Shown: one piece after another, positions 5,713 to 25,880 of the stretch
Layout of the letters: the number at the start of each line of letters is the position of its first letter
Position numbering within the stretch: the stretch's first letter is position 1
Assembly (NCBI GenBank): GCA_947453415.1
Contig: CANGGG010000036.1
Coordinates: 1-32,615 of the forward strand
Origin: Bacteroidota bacterium
Lineage (GTDB): Bacteria; Bacteroidota; Bacteroidia; UKL13-3
Direction of reading: 5' to 3'
DNA: 32,615 nt
Program-made: the position numbers and the translations under genes
Notes under the pieces: model-generated
Databases searched by the model: none
Told to the model about the DNA's origin: nothing
Seen by the model: the letters and a program-made list of their open reading frames with translations, nothing else

Positions 5713-6687
5713 ATGACTAAAGGACCTATTTCAAATTTTATTGAAACACACTATAAACACTTTAACGCAGCAGCATTAGTTGACGCAGCTAAAGGTTACG
5801 AAGCCCATTTAACTGAAGGTGGAAAAATGATGATAACCCTTGCTGGTGCTATGAGTACAGCCGAGTTGGGTAAATCGTTAGCCGAAATGATTCGTCAAGG
5901 AAAAGTAGATATTATTAGCTGCACCGGTGCAAACTTAGAAGAAGATATTATGAATTTGGTGGCGCATAGTCACTACAAACGTGTTCCTAATTACCGCGAT
6001 TTAAGTCCACAAGATGAATGGGATTTGTTAGAAAACCATTATAACCGTGTTACCGATACTTGTATTCCTGAGGAGGAAGCATTTAGAAGATTACAAAAAC
6101 ACATTTATAAAATATGGAAAGATGCTGAAGATAAAGGGGAACGTTATTTTCCGCATGAGTTCATGTATAAAATATTATTGAGTGGTGAATTGCAACAATA
6201 TTATGAAATAGATCCTAAAAATTCTTGGATGTTAGCTGCTGCTGAACGCAATTTGCCAATGGTTGTGCCAGGTTGGGAAGACAGTACCATGGGAAATATT
6301 TTTGCTTCTTATGTTATAAAAGGTGAATTACAGGCGAGTACCATGAAATCAGGTATTGAATACATGGCTTGGCTAGCAAAATGGTATCCTGAAAACTCAG
6401 GGGGAAAAGGAGTAGGATTTTTTCAAATTGGTGGCGGAATTGCTGGCGATTTCCCTATATGTGTAGTTCCTATGTTATACCAAGACATGGAAATGACTGA
6501 TATTCCTTTTTGGAGTTATTTCTGCCAAATTAGTGATTCAACAACCAGTTATGGTTCTTATTCAGGAGCAGTTCCAAATGAAAAAATTACTTGGGGTAAA
6601 TTAGATATTCATACGCCAAAATTCATTGTAGAAAGTGACGCAACAATTGTTGCTCCGCTTATGTTTGCTTGGATTTTAGGCTGGTAG
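5713..6687 (+). CDS. Deoxyhypusine-synthase-like protein lacking the canonical catalytic lysine
   Basis: This 324-residue protein belongs to the deoxyhypusine synthase superfamily, NAD-dependent aminobutyl-transfer enzymes. Recognisable parts are ITLAGAMSTAELG (41-53), the NAD-binding segment CTGANLEEDI (70-79), the substrate-pocket motif WEDSTMGN (188-195), a glycine motif IGGGIAGDF (239-247) and SGAVPNEKITWGK (284-296). By my alignment to the human enzyme as recalled, its active-site Lys329 in GGGVVKHH falls on Gly245 here. Bacteria lack eIF5A, the classical substrate, so the role is probably polyamine-related or has diverged. The gene is monocistronic, with its own -7 box and a strong terminator at 6715-6756. 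Confidence 0.88.
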   Translation: MTKGPISNFIETHYKHFNAAALVDAAKGYEAHLTEGGKMMITLAGAMSTAELGKSLAEMIRQGKVDIISCTGANLEEDIMNLVAHSHYKRVPNYRDLSPQDEWDLLENHYNRVTDTCIPEEEAFRRLQKHIYKIWKDAEDKGERYFPHEFMYKILLSGELQQYYEIDPKNSWMLAAAERNLPMVVPGWEDSTMGNIFASYVIKGELQASTMKSGIEYMAWLAKWYPENSGGKGVGFFQIGGGIAGDFPICVVPMLYQDMEMTDIPFWSYFCQISDSTTSYGSYSGAVPNEKITWGKLDIHTPKFIVESDATIVAPLMFAWILGW

Positions 6688-11550: not shown

Positions 11551-11970
11551 ATGTCATTATACATAGATGAGAGCACCTTGGCAGGTGCAGGGAAAGGATT
11601 ATTTACAGATACTTTAATAAAACGAGGCGAACGAATAGTAGAATATACAGGTGATATAATTACTTGGAAAGAATGTGAGCGCAGAAATAATGCTATGAAA
11701 GATGGAATAGGGGCATATTATTTTTATGTGTCAGCAAAAAAATGCATTGATGCACAATATCATTTAGACAGCATGGCCCGTTATTGCAATGACGCCAATG
11801 GATTTACAAAAGTTTCAGGACTAAAAAACAATGCTAGATTTGAAATTATAAAAGGTAAAGTTTATATCATAGCAAGTAGAAATTTAAAGCCAGGAGTTGA
11901 AATATTTGTGCCTTATGGAAAAGAATATTGGCAAGCCATAGCCGAGCAAGGTTATGGTCCTAAATTGTAA
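11551..11970 (+). CDS. SET-domain protein (putative protein-lysine methyltransferase)
   Basis: The 139-residue protein is essentially a bare SET domain. The N-terminal SAM motif is AGAGKGLFTD (11-20) with ERIVEYTGDII; the catalytic core equivalent to RFxNHSCxPN is ARYCNDANG (76-84), keeping Asn80 but with Asp81 in place of the usual His; NARF (94-97) and GVEIFVPYGKEYW (115-127) with Tyr122 form the post-core part. It would transfer a methyl group from S-adenosylmethionine to lysine of an unknown cytosolic protein. The length is normal for bacterial mini-SET proteins. It is preceded by tandem repeats and followed by comM after a promoter, so it looks monocistronic. Confidence 0.85.
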   Translation: MSLYIDESTLAGAGKGLFTDTLIKRGERIVEYTGDIITWKECERRNNAMKDGIGAYYFYVSAKKCIDAQYHLDSMARYCNDANGFTKVSGLKNNARFEIIKGKVYIIASRNLKPGVEIFVPYGKEYWQAIAEQGYGPKL

Positions 11971-20053: not shown

Positions 20054-21679
20054 ATGTTGAAAAAAATATTTTTAAGTGTATGTACCTTGTTTTTTTTTAT
20101 TCAATCGCAAGCACAAATATTTCCCTTAATACCTTTTCCTAACCGCATTCAAAAAGTAGCAGGAACATTTTCTATCAATGAAAACACAGTTATTTTTGCT
20201 AACAATAGTTCCAATGAAGCCAATTATTTACAACAATATTTATTGCAGAATTATGGGCTGAAAATTAAAATAGTTTATGAAGTTAATAAGGTTAATAATG
20301 TAATTTCATTTTTAATTGCCCCTGCAAAAATTGATGTTAATGACAAAGAAAAATACCAATTAAATATTGATAGCAATTCAATTAAAATTTTTGCTGTTGA
20401 CAATGCAGGAATTTTTTATGGTATTCAAACATTGATTCAATTATTACCCATTGAAAAAACTAATGTTTTAAATATTCCTTGTTTGCAAATAAACGATGGA
20501 CCACGTTACCAATGGCGTGGCATGCACTTAGATTGTAGCCGACATTTTTTTACTAAAAACGAAGTGAAAAAATACATTGATTATTTGGCCATGTATAAAC
20601 TAAATGTTTTTCATTGGCATTTGGTAGATGACCAAGGTTGGCGAATTGAAATAAAAAAGTATCCGTTTTTGACTAAAATTGGAAGTAAACGCAAAGCTAC
20701 TTTAATTGGAAAACCAACCTTTGATTCATTGGGAAATCCTTCGGCAAACGATAAATACGATAGCACATTGTATGAAGGATTTTATACGCAAAACGATATC
20801 AAGGAAATTGTTGCGTATGCAAAAAACAGACATGTTACCGTACTTCCAGAAATAGAAATGCCCGGACATTCATTAGCTGCTTTGGCTGCGTATCCGCAAT
20901 ATGCGTGTAATGCTGGTCCGTTTGAAACCTATAGCCGTTGGGGCGTTTCCGATGATGTGTACTGCGCGGGCAATGATGAAACTTTTGTGTTTTTAGAAAA
21001 CATTTTAAAGGAAGTAATGGAATTATTCCCAAGTAAATACATTCATATTGGTGGCGATGAATGTGTAAAAACTAAATGGAAATCGTGCGAAAAATGTCAA
21101 AATCGAAAACTGAATGAACATTTAAAAAATGAAGCGGAATTACAAAGTTATTTCATTACCAGAATTGAAAAATATGTGAACGCTAATGGACGTCAAATTA
21201 TTGGTTGGGACGAAATTTTAGAAGGTGGATTGGCGCCCAACGCAGCATTGATGAGTTGGCGAGGAATCAATGGTGGAATTGCTGCAGCAAAACAAAATCA
21301 TTATGTGGTGATGAGTCCAGGAAGACCCTGTTATTTTGACCATTATCAAAGCAAAGATAAAGGTACTGAACCCATGGCAATTGGTGGATTTAATCCATTA
21401 GATTCCGTTTATAATTATAACCCAACTCCAGATTCTTTAAATGAAAATGAACAAAAATTTATCATGGGTGCGCAAGCAAATGTTTGGACAGAATACATTA
21501 CCAATTTTTCACAAGTTGAGTACATGGCTTTGCCCAGAATGAGCGCTTTGTCGGAGGTTTTATGGACCAATATGGAGAACAAAAATTTTACTGATTTCAA
21601 AGAAAGATTATATATTCATAAGGGAATTTTAGATAGAATGAAAATTAATTACGCCAAACATTTTTTACCTATTAAATAA
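20054..21679 (+). CDS. Beta-N-acetylhexosaminidase, GH20, secreted
   Basis: The 541-residue protein has a signal peptide (LSVCTLFFFIQSQAQ, cleavage near residue 20), a GH20b N-terminal domain (about 25-150) and a GH20 TIM barrel. Motifs: RGMHLDCSRHF (155-165), FHWHLVDDQGWRIEI (186-200), PEIEMPGHS (265-273) and the catalytic pair in HIGGDE with Asp335 (stabilises the acetamido group) and Glu336 (acid/base). It releases terminal GlcNAc or GalNAc from glycans, probably in the periplasm. No T9SS tail or lipobox. It is the first gene of the operon; its TAA shares a base with the next ATG (TAATG). Confidence 0.95.
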   Translation: MLKKIFLSVCTLFFFIQSQAQIFPLIPFPNRIQKVAGTFSINENTVIFANNSSNEANYLQQYLLQNYGLKIKIVYEVNKVNNVISFLIAPAKIDVNDKEKYQLNIDSNSIKIFAVDNAGIFYGIQTLIQLLPIEKTNVLNIPCLQINDGPRYQWRGMHLDCSRHFFTKNEVKKYIDYLAMYKLNVFHWHLVDDQGWRIEIKKYPFLTKIGSKRKATLIGKPTFDSLGNPSANDKYDSTLYEGFYTQNDIKEIVAYAKNRHVTVLPEIEMPGHSLAALAAYPQYACNAGPFETYSRWGVSDDVYCAGNDETFVFLENILKEVMELFPSKYIHIGGDECVKTKWKSCEKCQNRKLNEHLKNEAELQSYFITRIEKYVNANGRQIIGWDEILEGGLAPNAALMSWRGINGGIAAAKQNHYVVMSPGRPCYFDHYQSKDKGTEPMAIGGFNPLDSVYNYNPTPDSLNENEQKFIMGAQANVWTEYITNFSQVEYMALPRMSALSEVLWTNMENKNFTDFKERLYIHKGILDRMKINYAKHFLPIK

Positions 21680-22665
21680 TGACAGACAGAAGAAAATTTT
21701 TAAAAACATCGGCATTGGCTTCGGCAGCATTATTGGTAAATAGTAGTGCAAATGCTGAAATTAAACCCAATGTAAAAGTGAACAAACCCATTGTTTTATC
21801 CACTTGGAAATTTGGACTAAAATGCAATGAAACTGCATGGGAAATATTGAAAAATAATGGTAAAGCATTAGATGCGGTGGAAGCTGGAGTAATGGTTTGC
21901 GAAGCGGATCCAAATGAACGAAGTGTGGGTTATGGCGGCCGACCAGATAGAGATGGAAGAGTTACATTAGATGCTTGCATCATGGACGAAATGTCGAATA
22001 TTGGTTCCGTGGCTTGTTTAGAATTTATTAAGCATCCTATTTCGGTGGCAAGGGCTGTTATGGAAAAATCGCCACACGTCATGTTTGTGGGTGATGGTGC
22101 ATTGCAATTTGCACTTTCGCAAGGTTTTAAAAAAGAAAATTTATTGGTAGAAGCTTCCGAAAAAGAATGGAAAGAATGGTTAAAAACTTCCCAATACAAA
22201 CCAATTGTAAATATTGAAAATCATGATACCATTGGCATGATTGCCTTAGATGCAAATGGCAATCTTTCGGGTGCATGTACTACCAGCGGAATGGCTTTCA
22301 AAATGCATGGTCGAGTGGGCGATTCACCCATTATTGGTGCAGGTTTGTACGTAGATAATGAAATTGGCGCGGCCACTGCAACAGGTCATGGTGAAGAAGT
22401 AATTAGAATTGCTGGTTGTCATTTAGTGGTTGAGTTAATGCGTCAAGGGAAATCGCCACAAAATGCGTGTGAGGAAGCAGTAGCAAGAGTGGTAAAATTA
22501 ATGAAACTAAGGAAGAAAGAATTGAAAGATATTCAAGTTGGTTTTATTGCGTTAAATAAAAATGGTGAACATGGTTCGTATTGCGTGCAAAGTGGCTTTA
22601 ATTATGCCGTTCACGACAATTCAGGAAATGTTTTATTGGATGCACCTTATCATTTTAAACTTTAA
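21679..22665 (+). CDS. N4-(beta-N-acetylglucosaminyl)-L-asparaginase (glycosylasparaginase)
   Basis: This is a 328-residue Ntn-hydrolase precursor. The N-terminus MTDRRKFLKTSALASAALL looks like a Tat signal (RRKFLK), so the enzyme is probably exported folded. It is made as a precursor that cuts itself between Asp183 and Thr184 in NHDTIGM, making Thr184 the new N-terminal nucleophile. Substrate-site sequences GRVGDSP and ATGHGEE are present. It hydrolyses the GlcNAc-Asn link once the glycan has been trimmed. It overlaps the hexosaminidase stop by one base, and CutC follows after 15 bases. Length and motifs match flavobacterial aspartylglucosaminidases. Confidence 0.94.
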   Translation: MTDRRKFLKTSALASAALLVNSSANAEIKPNVKVNKPIVLSTWKFGLKCNETAWEILKNNGKALDAVEAGVMVCEADPNERSVGYGGRPDRDGRVTLDACIMDEMSNIGSVACLEFIKHPISVARAVMEKSPHVMFVGDGALQFALSQGFKKENLLVEASEKEWKEWLKTSQYKPIVNIENHDTIGMIALDANGNLSGACTTSGMAFKMHGRVGDSPIIGAGLYVDNEIGAATATGHGEEVIRIAGCHLVVELMRQGKSPQNACEEAVARVVKLMKLRKKELKDIQVGFIALNKNGEHGSYCVQSGFNYAVHDNSGNVLLDAPYHFKL

Positions 22666-22680
22666 AAAGTTTGAATATTT

Positions 22681-23352
22681 ATGCAGAAAAATCATTTAGA
22701 AATTGCTTGCTTTAAAATAGTATCTGCCATCATTGCGCAGCATGCCGGAGCCAATAGAATTGAGTTTTGTGCAGACATGAATGTAGGTGGTGTTACCCCA
22801 AAATTAGCAGATTTTATTTTATTAAAATCAAAAATTCATATTCCCGTTTTTGTAATGATTCGTCCAAGAGGAGGAAATTTTGTTTATTCAAATGAAGAGT
22901 TTGAACAAATGAAAAACGATATTTTGAATTTTAAAAATGCGGGTGCAGATGGATTTGTTTTTGGAATATTAACTGACAACAAGGAAGTAAATTTCATTCA
23001 AAATAAAGAATTGGTTCAATTAGCAAATCCTTTGCCATGCACATTCCATAGGGCTTTTGACGAAATAAATAATCAAATGGATGCCTTGGATAAAATCATT
23101 GGATGTGGATTTAAAACAATACTAACATCGGGAAATGCTAATAATGCATTGGAAGGATTAGTATATTTAAAAGCTTTAGCCTCTATTTCAAATAATAAAA
23201 TTTGCATCATGCCGGGTGGTGGAGTTCGTGCAACAAATATTGAAATATTGAAAGAAAATATTAATACCAATTGGTTTCATTCATCAGCTGTTTTACAAAA
23301 TGAAACAGCCAATATGGATGAAGTTTTTATACTTAAATCCAAACTAAATTGA
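22681..23352 (+). CDS. cutC: CutC family protein
   Basis: The 223-residue TIM-barrel protein matches CutC: LEIACFKIVSAIIAQHAGANRIEFC, GGVTPKLADF, VFVMIRPRGGNFVYSNEEFEQM, GADGFVFGIL, TFHRAFDEI, KTILTSGNA and IMPGGGVRATN. CutC is named for copper tolerance in E. coli, but that role is disputed and the binding pocket looks like that of a metabolic enzyme. Here it sits between glycosylasparaginase and beta-mannosidase, with its TGA overlapping the mannosidase TTG start (TTGA), so it is very likely co-translated with glycan-degrading enzymes. It has no signal peptide, hence cytosolic, unlike its neighbours. Confidence 0.92.
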   Translation: MQKNHLEIACFKIVSAIIAQHAGANRIEFCADMNVGGVTPKLADFILLKSKIHIPVFVMIRPRGGNFVYSNEEFEQMKNDILNFKNAGADGFVFGILTDNKEVNFIQNKELVQLANPLPCTFHRAFDEINNQMDALDKIIGCGFKTILTSGNANNALEGLVYLKALASISNNKICIMPGGGVRATNIEILKENINTNWFHSSAVLQNETANMDEVFILKSKLN

Positions 23353-25880
23353 AGAAATTCACCATCCTTTTTTTAGCTATAATTTGCTTGCCAATTTTTG
23401 CCCTTTCTCAAATTGCTAAAAGAGATTTGTCGAAGGAAAAATGGTTATTTAAAAACACCCAAGAAAATAAATGGTTTTCCGCTAAAATTCCTGGAACTGT
23501 TCATACCGATTTATTCCAAAATAAAATTATTCCAAATCCTTTTACAGGCAATAACGAAAAGCTTTTACAGTATATTGATCGTGAAAATTGGGAATATAAA
23601 ACTGAATTTATTATTACTCAAACCGAATACCAAAATGAATACATTGATTTGAATTTTGAGGGCTTAGATACTTATGCAAAAGTGTATATAAACGACTCAT
23701 TAATTTTAACTGCCAATAACATGTTTCGTACTTGGAATTTGGAGGTAAAAAGACTTTTGAAAATTGGTAACAATCAATTAAAAATTGTTTTTGAATCAGC
23801 AGTTAATAAGGGAGAAGCTGAAGCAAAAAAACTACCTTATGAATTGCCTGGAAATGAAAAAGTTTTTACCCGAAAGGCTCTGTATCATTACGGTTGGGAT
23901 TGGGGTCCACGATTTGTAACTTGTGGAATTTATAAAGCTATTCATTTGCATTTTTGGAATCAAGCCAAAATTAATCATGTACAATTTATTCAAGAAAAAC
24001 TCACCAAAGAATTGGCGCAAATTCAATTGAAGGTGGAAGTAAATTGTAGTCAAAAAGGGATTTATAATTGTAAAATGTATAATTCAAAACCAAGTCGTGA
24101 TTTACCATTATTTAAAGATACTTTTATAGAACTGCAAAAAGGAATAAACACTGTTTTATTAAATACTACAATTAAGAATCCCGAACTATGGTGGACGCAT
24201 AATTTAGGTAAACAAAATTTATATAATTATACGATTGTTTTAGAATCAGCCAGCAAAAAAATTGATTTAAAGGATGTAACCTTTGGGTTGCGAACCATTG
24301 AATTAGTGCAGGAAAACGACAGTTTAGGAAAATCGTTTTTGTTTAAATTAAATGGCATTCCTGTTTTTATGAAAGGTGCAAATTATATTCCTGAAGACAA
24401 CTTTTTACCACGCGTTACATATTCAAAAACCAAACAATTAATTAATGATGCCAAAGCTACAAACATGAATATGCTGCGCGTTTGGGGTGGTGGTGAATAT
24501 GCGAGTGATTATTTTTATCAATTATGTAATGAAAACGGCATATTGGTTTGGCAAGATTTTATGTTTGCATGCGCAATGTTTCCTGGAGATACCCCTTTTT
24601 TGGAAAACGTAAATGCGGAAGTAAATGATCAAATAATTCGTTTAAGAAATCATCCTAGTTTGGCCATTTGGTGTGGTAACAATGAAATAGATGAAGGATG
24701 GAAAAATTGGGGTTGGCAAAAACAATATAAGTATAATACCACTGACTCAACTAAAATTTGGAATGACTATGTTTTATTGTTTGAAAACAATATTAAAAAT
24801 GCCATACAATTTTTGGACAAATCAAGGTTTTATTGGCCAAGCTCACCATCTATTGGTTGGGGACGAAAAGAAAGTTTAACGCAAGGCGATGCACATTATT
24901 GGGGTGTTTGGTGGGGAATGCAGCCGTTTGAAACTTATGAAAAAAAGGTGGGAAGATTCATGAGTGAATATGGTTTTCAAGGGATGCCTTCATTAAGCAC
25001 TTTTACAAAAATGGGTGCTTTGAAATGTAAAAATAATGTTTTTAAAATTGATTCCAGTGTTTTAAAAACTCATCAAAAACACCCAACTGGATTTGAAACT
25101 ATTCAAACTTATATGGAACGCGATTACCCTATTCCAAATAGTTTTGATAATTACATATATGTTTCACAATTGCTGCAAGCAGAAGGAATGAAAAGAGCCA
25201 TTGAAGCGCATCGAAGGGCCATGCCATATTGTATGGGAACGTTGTATTGGCAGTTAAACGATTGTTGGCCAGTTACATCTTGGAGTTCTATAGATTATGA
25301 TGGAAATTGGAAAGCTTTACACTATCAAGTAAAAAAATCGTACAATGATTTATTAATTTCGTTTGAAGAAAAAAACGATTCAGTTTTAGTATTTATAGTT
25401 TCAGATTTATTAGAAAATATAAATGGAAATTTAAATGTTAGCGTATTAGATTTTAATGGTAAAATTGTTTTCACTGAAAATGTGGAAACCATTGTTAAAT
25501 CAAATACTAGCGGCATTTATTTTTATTTTGATAAAAGTAAGTTGAAAGGTGAATTCAATTGGAATAATTTGGTTTTATCAGCTACATTTAACAACGTAAA
25601 TTTCAATATAAATTCTTTGCATTATTTTGTAAAGCCAAAGGATTTATTACTTCAAAAACCTGCTATTAAATTTAAATATTTAAATTATAATCAAATAGAA
25701 ATATCAAGTGATAAATTAGCCAAAAATGTTTATTTAAGAACTGATAATAAATCTTATCAATTTGAAGAAAACTACTTCGATTTACTTCCAAATGAAAAGA
25801 AAATTATTCAAGTTTCTGGTAAATATTCCAAAATAGATTTTTTTGAAACATGCCCAAAATCTTTGTTTGATGCTCAATAA
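23349..25880 (+). CDS. Beta-mannosidase, GH2, secreted
   Basis: The 843-residue protein starts at a TTG that overlaps the cutC stop; only this start gives the signal peptide KKFTILFLAIICLPIFALSQ. It is a GH2 enzyme: an N-terminal jelly roll (DLSKEKWLFKNTQ, PGTVHTDLF, the latter typical of beta-mannosidases), an Ig-like domain, and a TIM barrel with the acid/base Glu446 in WCGNNEID and the nucleophile Glu540 in MSEYGFQGMPS. WDWGPRF near 185 is also a beta-mannosidase signature. It would remove the beta-1,4-mannose of the N-glycan core or of mannan oligosaccharides in the periplasm. It is the last gene of the operon. Confidence 0.93.
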   Translation: MKKFTILFLAIICLPIFALSQIAKRDLSKEKWLFKNTQENKWFSAKIPGTVHTDLFQNKIIPNPFTGNNEKLLQYIDRENWEYKTEFIITQTEYQNEYIDLNFEGLDTYAKVYINDSLILTANNMFRTWNLEVKRLLKIGNNQLKIVFESAVNKGEAEAKKLPYELPGNEKVFTRKALYHYGWDWGPRFVTCGIYKAIHLHFWNQAKINHVQFIQEKLTKELAQIQLKVEVNCSQKGIYNCKMYNSKPSRDLPLFKDTFIELQKGINTVLLNTTIKNPELWWTHNLGKQNLYNYTIVLESASKKIDLKDVTFGLRTIELVQENDSLGKSFLFKLNGIPVFMKGANYIPEDNFLPRVTYSKTKQLINDAKATNMNMLRVWGGGEYASDYFYQLCNENGILVWQDFMFACAMFPGDTPFLENVNAEVNDQIIRLRNHPSLAIWCGNNEIDEGWKNWGWQKQYKYNTTDSTKIWNDYVLLFENNIKNAIQFLDKSRFYWPSSPSIGWGRKESLTQGDAHYWGVWWGMQPFETYEKKVGRFMSEYGFQGMPSLSTFTKMGALKCKNNVFKIDSSVLKTHQKHPTGFETIQTYMERDYPIPNSFDNYIYVSQLLQAEGMKRAIEAHRRAMPYCMGTLYWQLNDCWPVTSWSSIDYDGNWKALHYQVKKSYNDLLISFEEKNDSVLVFIVSDLLENINGNLNVSVLDFNGKIVFTENVETIVKSNTSGIYFYFDKSKLKGEFNWNNLVLSATFNNVNFNINSLHYFVKPKDLLLQKPAIKFKYLNYNQIEISSDKLAKNVYLRTDNKSYQFEENYFDLLPNEKKIIQVSGKYSKIDFFETCPKSLFDAQ

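Follow-up and report, generated by a model that had tools for sequence, protein, structure and literature searches.

What does a gene named for copper homeostasis do in a run of glycan-degrading genes? The question is raised by a 32,615-nucleotide contig from a Bacteroidota bacterium, analysed here at its full length and referred to as the window, in which the open reading frames and their Pfam matches define a tight plus-strand run of four genes at 20054-25880. The run opens with a GH20 beta-N-acetylhexosaminidase (20054..21679, + strand, 541 aa; PF00728, 1.3e-122), in which the letters GGDE are visible, presumably the motif of the GH20 family. This gene is followed on the same strand by glycosylasparaginase, or AGA (21679..22665, 328 aa; PF01112 Asparaginase_2, 9.8e-73), by cutC (22681..23352, 223 aa; PF03932, 1.1e-58), and by a GH2 beta-mannosidase (23349..25880, 843 aa; Pfam Glyco_hydro_2_N2, Mannosidase_ig and Ig_mannosidase). 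The GH20 and AGA genes have one base in common (TAATG), the ATG of cutC lies 15 bases past the end of the AGA stop, and the GH2 gene starts with a TTG that overlaps cutC by four bases (TTGA); the latter two junctions had been described in an earlier note on this DNA, and both can be read directly from the letters. Between 19833 and 26100, promoter-like sites showed no excess over shuffled sequence (29 vs 30.1), and one terminator-like site was found, on the minus strand, vs 4.2 expected, so that the operon assignment is drawn from gene spacing only. Elsewhere in the window, 5713-6687 encodes a bacterial deoxyhypusine synthase-like protein (PF01916, 2.2e-41), and 11551-11970 encodes a small protein with a SET domain (PF00856, 1.1e-13).

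The name of the gene suggests a role in copper handling. The window protein belongs to the CutC family, as its PF03932 score of 198.5 bits lies well above the curated cut-off of 23.3, but its score to the NCBIfam equivalog NF008603, 'copper homeostasis protein CutC', is 182.8 bits against a curated cut-off of 311, and it is therefore not filed as that equivalog. The proposed copper ligands of human CutC, Cys31 and Cys52, are equivalent to positions 9 and 30 of the window protein. Cys30 is kept in 76 of the 77 rows of our CutC alignment, whereas position 9 is Cys in just 40 rows and is Ala in the window protein, which thus differs from human CutC at one proposed ligand and lacks the full cysteine pair. 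In the same 77 rows, and unlike the cysteine pair, E7, R26, E28, D127 and H200 are invariant. The earlier note had seen no copper pump or chaperone in the window, and in agreement with this none of the 28 open reading frames scanned, three of which have no Pfam match, belongs to a Pfam copper family. Among 179 neighbour families, counted over 149 proteins at 45 Bacteroidota cutC loci, the 25 most frequent likewise include no copper family.

Doubt over a copper role for CutC is not new. A 2019 paper explains the sensitivity to copper of cutC mutants in E. coli wholly by inactivation of the sRNA MicL (PMC6538781), an origin that is thus already known, and cutC deletion is again taken as loss of MicL in PMC8216713. 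The CutC of the minimal cell Syn3.0 is thought unlikely to bind copper, and perhaps to bind zinc (PMC4993169). A role in copper homeostasis, with adjacency to AGA being incidental, would be in keeping with the family name and NCBIfam label, with the near-universal retention of Cys30, and with the higher copper tolerance of E. coli overexpressing cutC in Dub-seq, though this was credited by its authors to the sigma-E response (PMC6338753). Weighed against the MicL origin of the mutant phenotype, the Ala at the second ligand position, the lack of copper families in the window and among the 25 most frequent neighbour families and a conserved residue set that does not include the cysteine pair, such a role is very unlikely.

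To which genes is cutC linked across the phylum? Among 247 Bacteroidota genomes, sampled evenly and with AGA called by profile at E 1e-70, CutC is present in 76 and AGA in 123; AGA occurs in 75 of the 76 cutC genomes vs 48 of the 171 without cutC. At a stricter AGA cut of 1e-100 these counts become 70 of 76 and 31 of 171, one side being slightly weaker. A Fisher test on these genome counts ignores phylogeny, and its p values are not for face-value use. Within the class of the window, 61 genomes were sampled, of which 50 carry both genes, one carries cutC only (G230), none carries AGA only and ten carry neither. These ten belong to four families, and three of them come from a genus whose other sampled members have both genes. 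GH20 is found in all 51 cutC genomes of this class and also in 4 of the 10 genomes without cutC and AGA, indicating that AGA tracks cutC more tightly than GH20 does. These distributions bear on whether CutC could serve general housekeeping or the repair of metabolite damage, with AGA as just one source of its substrate and the glycan linkage as just one context. Cells without AGA do carry cutC, and the gene is retained in Syn3.0 as MMSYN1_0433 (PMC4993169), both of which fit a general function. However, cutC occurs in under a third of the Bacteroidota sampled, and in the class of the window 60 of the 61 sampled genomes have either both cutC and AGA or neither; we therefore regard a general housekeeping function as rather unlikely.

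Co-occurrence is accompanied by physical linkage. We fetched 76 Bacteroidota cutC loci from 74 genomes, with two each from G138 and G150 and with the split match of G037 and the window itself (G000) excluded. At 35 of these loci, which come from 22 of 47 genera, cutC has an AGA gene no more than 1 kb away (upstream in the same orientation at 30, divergent at 5), vs about 0.07 loci expected by a rough estimate under random placement; at the other 41, AGA is not that close. A further 80 named loci include 56 with AGA within 1 kb, although these loci were picked by similarity to the window protein and are thus biased to Flavobacterium and Chryseobacterium. The remaining named loci come from 24 genomes, and the AGA profile has a match at 1e-30 in 16 of these, including 13 at 1e-70. 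A census of up to two neighbours per side gave 187 proteins from 47 loci, one per genus; with proteins of more than 700 residues excluded and the list taken to its first 150 entries, which cover 45 loci, 149 proteins were scanned, the overlong AGA frame of L092 being left out. Asparaginase_2 accounts for 22 of the 149, and the next family for 4. The earlier note had proposed that the neighbours of cutC be counted for GH20, GH2 and asparaginase genes alike, and this linkage holds for AGA and is far weaker for the two glycosidases: GH20 lies within 5 kb of cutC in just 5 of the 76 loci and GH2 in just 6, and we reject both as constant partners. The conserved partner of cutC is AGA.

The linkage is also spread over the CutC tree. 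A quickly built tree of 136 CutC proteins requires 14 changes of the AGA-linked label, a figure that is rough given the many open forks and the long L247 branch, and that indicates that AGA linkage is not one inherited block. AGA-linked proteins are found in several distant clades, and two of them share a clade, made up mostly of Pseudomonadota, with proteins linked to ROK kinases. No signature columns set AGA-linked apart from unlinked CutC at a 70% cut, and thus we do not claim a specialised subfamily. Three further observations concern individual loci. At L074, L077, L079, L085, L088, L089 and L096, which belong to several genomes of a single genus, a cluster represented by arginyl-tRNA synthetase (argS) is found some 3 kb from cutC; E. 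coli cutC is also near argS. The locus L111, on a contig titled Bifidobacterium breve, holds a Flavobacterium-like AGA-CutC-GH2 arrangement, which suggests that the title is probably wrong. In G037, the CutC match (C34, 6846-7396) is in two pieces with internal stops and is likely a decayed copy.

What does the partner protein do? Judged by its sequence, the window AGA is a true glycosylasparaginase, with 523 bits to solved glycosylasparaginases vs 144 to isoaspartyl peptidases. The beta chains of solved glycosylasparaginases, such as 1ayy_B, align from residue 184 of the window protein, and H182, D183 and T184 are invariant in an 18-row alignment; processing is predicted before Thr184, with this Thr opening the beta chain. 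By eye, the protein begins with a twin-arginine signal (RRKFLK), and almost all 37 AGA genes listed share such a twin-arginine start, the exceptions being L057, which is lipoprotein-like, and L092, which is ambiguous. The window GH20 has a Sec-type signal-like start and the GH2 beta-mannosidase a signal-like start, also by eye. For CutC, inspection by eye found neither a signal-like start in the window protein nor a recurrent signal peptide in related rows. From these starts, GH20, AGA and GH2 look exported and CutC looks cytosolic.

The CutC protein itself looks like an enzyme. Its AlphaFold model is a TIM barrel with a mean pLDDT of 96.8, which, together with the lack of a signal-like start, agrees with the earlier description of a cytosolic TIM barrel. 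The model has the CutC fold, with a Z of 37.2 to human CutC (3iwp_A) over 222 residues, and solved CutC members (3iwp, human; 1twd, 1x7i and 1x8c, Shigella; 2bdq; 4r9x) match it over the whole length with Z 29-37 and rmsd 0.9-1.6. Outside the family, the nearest fold is MJ1099 (MfnB; Z 20.9-21.7), followed by the phosphate-binding TIM barrels HPS, PdxJ, TrpF, HisA and DeoC (Z about 17-19). Among the matches listed, MJ1099 and the phosphate barrels have 7-16% identity to CutC and no clear sequence relation to it, and a sequence search for distant relatives gave weak profile matches only, the best being DHDPS (E 0.015) and DeoC (0.04). The invariant or near-invariant residues of the 77-row alignment comprise R61, R63 and H123 in addition to the five invariant positions. 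In the model, E7, E28, R61/R63, H123/D127, S150/G151, G179/G181 and H200 sit within strands 1, 2, 3, 5, 6, 7 and 8 or immediately behind them, and strand ends are the usual place of the active site in TIM barrels. The conserved G151, G179 and G181 are at the ends of strands 6 and 7, in a model whose Z to many phosphate barrels is 17-22; this modelled likeness alone shows no function. The conservation pattern is active-site-like and suggests catalysis.

Three results computed here, namely the recurrent linkage to AGA, the shared occurrence with it and a conservation pattern like that of an active site, together support a role in amino-sugar breakdown. We consider it reasonably likely that this CutC works in the cytosol as an enzyme that catabolises amino sugars, and is not a copper protein. 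In such a pathway, exported GH20, GH2 and related glycosidases would trim the N-glycan to GlcNAc-Asn, which Tat-exported AGA would split into aspartate and the glycosylamine 1-amino-GlcNAc. The latter would decay to GlcNAc, and the sugar would be imported into the cytosol, both export and import being predicted steps. CutC may then act on the sugar or its kinase product, before or beside GlcNAc kinase and deacetylase. The least certain part is the exact CutC reaction, which might hydrolyse or isomerise 1-amino-GlcNAc or its 6-phosphate, interconvert GlcNAc anomers, or be an epimerase step. The suggestion of the earlier note that CutC handles an imported sugar or amino-sugar product of glycan cleavage has thereby gained genomic context from the AGA linkage, and the identity of the substrate is still something that we infer.

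Loci from other phyla extend this picture. CutC occurs in 31 of 199 Pseudomonadota genomes, in 5 of 192 genomes of the class of G369 and in 25 of 120 Spirochaetota genomes. True AGA (E < 1e-100) is present in 6 of the 31 Pseudomonadota cutC genomes: it adjoins cutC in G360, G364, G459 and, divergently, G410, is one gene off in G394, and lies elsewhere in the genome in G452, where a GH2 mannosidase relative comes after CutC at L226. The G394 locus (L247, 1109-11574) is a compact run of GH92, SSF, GH2 mannosidase, CutC, GH85 and AGA, a gene set that, as annotated, is coherent for N-glycan breakdown and would place much of the pathway in one operon. At L246, two SIS genes, a ROK kinase and an amidohydrolase precede CutC, which is followed by a dihydroxy-acid/phosphogluconate dehydratase; the four families before CutC are matched at L244, where an additional gene stands ahead of the amidohydrolase. 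ROK kinases adjoin cutC at L228, L293, L295, L297 and L299 (Pseudomonadota and Spirochaetota), phosphomannose isomerase at L300, a fucosidase on a Sphaerochaeta contig, and an M20 peptidase at L291, where an AGA relative is 3 kb off. The linkage of cutC to amino-sugar genes thus recurs in two further phyla beyond the Bacteroidota set. A census of cutC-adjacent genes outside Bacteroidota (53 of 59 genes scanned, with the 25 commonest of 59 families listed) gave AzlC 7, GNAT 6, LysR 4 and patatin 3, next to ROK 6 and Asparaginase_2 3. In Spirochaetota, a metallopeptidase of the M81 (MlrC) type directly adjoins cutC at L165 (8732-10207) and L296 (4407-5867).

These ROK-containing loci invite a narrower form of the amino-sugar role, in which CutC is a GlcNAc anomerase, or an epimerase of GlcNAc and ManNAc or their 6-phosphates, feeding a ROK kinase and a deacetylase. 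The ROK kinases beside cutC fit this reaction, as do the amidohydrolases of L244 and L246, which are probably NagA-like from their Amidohydro_1 match and context, and ribulose-phosphate 3-epimerase is a fold relative (Z 17). An anomerase or epimerase would, however, leave unexplained why the commonest partner is AGA and not GH20, and our confidence in it is low.

Does an AGA-based pathway always include CutC? The 48 AGA genomes without cutC all lie outside the class of the window. AGA loci from 20 of them (L301-L320) have an SSF match within three genes in 6 and GH92 in 6, and recurrent clusters nearby, each judged from one representative, are Ham1-like, pfkB kinase and GH47. No single gene stood out in these 20 loci as a replacement for cutC beside AGA. 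The presence of AGA beside SSF, GH92 or GH47 without cutC indicates that CutC is not required for the pathway everywhere, and L301-L320 resemble a second type of N-glycan operon that lacks it. The 41 of 76 unlinked Bacteroidota loci, the 48 AGA genomes without cutC and the 25 of 31 Pseudomonadota cutC genomes without true AGA count against a role of CutC with AGA, as do the many Pseudomonadota and Spirochaetota cutC neighbours that are not sugar genes and the apparent export of AGA but not of CutC. Overall, the data support CutC acting with, though not only with, AGA.

A known AGA system helps to place the candidate reactions. The alf-2 cluster of Lactobacillus casei (AlfH, AlfC, AsdA, PepV, AsnA2, SugK; PMC6960285) is likewise an AGA-centred route of GlcNAc-Asn catabolism with a ROK kinase, and the M20 peptidase and AGA relative at L291 add to the likeness. 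The alf-2 AGA acts intracellularly, whereas the AGA described here bears a Tat signal, and the paper on alf-2 does not mention CutC (PMC6960285). The L. casei enzyme yields 1-amino-GlcNAc, a compound described there as not metabolizable as such and as unstable at acid pH, where it decays without an enzyme, and the step is treated as spontaneous (PMC6960285). CutC might hydrolyse or isomerise this compound, or its 6-phosphate, left by AGA, a second narrower form of the amino-sugar role. Its appeal is that the strongest linkage of cutC is to the very enzyme making the compound, and that TrpF and HisA, whose substrates are N-glycosylamine phosphates, are among the structural matches (Z 17-18). 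That Z is, however, shared by many other phosphate barrels; cutC is found in AGA-free genomes and next to a run of ROK and amidohydrolase genes as well, AGA also occurs without cutC, and 1-amino-GlcNAc should form in the periplasm, away from a CutC that looks cytosolic. Our confidence in this reaction is correspondingly low, and it is doubtful that a CutC kept from bacteria to man converts AGA-released 1-amino-GlcNAc, or its 6-phosphate, to GlcNAc. Under the broader role in amino-sugar catabolism, the candidate substrate that asks for the fewest assumptions is the product of AGA, but the ROK and amidohydrolase context and the AGA-free genomes leave GlcNAc or its phosphates as candidates too. 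A search of the open-licence literature found no published link between CutC and glycosylasparaginase, or among CutC, asparaginase and hexosaminidase, a scope that leaves the absence of such a link unproven.

CutC spans the range from a Mycoplasma-derived minimal cell (PMC4993169) to man (3iwp), yet it is called a copper protein chiefly because of a phenotype in E. coli that has since been traced to an sRNA. The conserved genomic partner AGA narrows the likely substrate to the cleavage products of GlcNAc-Asn and the GlcNAc route, which turns the long-open function of CutC into a short list of assays. If true, an amino-sugar role would also mean that PF03932 should no longer be counted among copper domains, a practice followed in PMC6769254.
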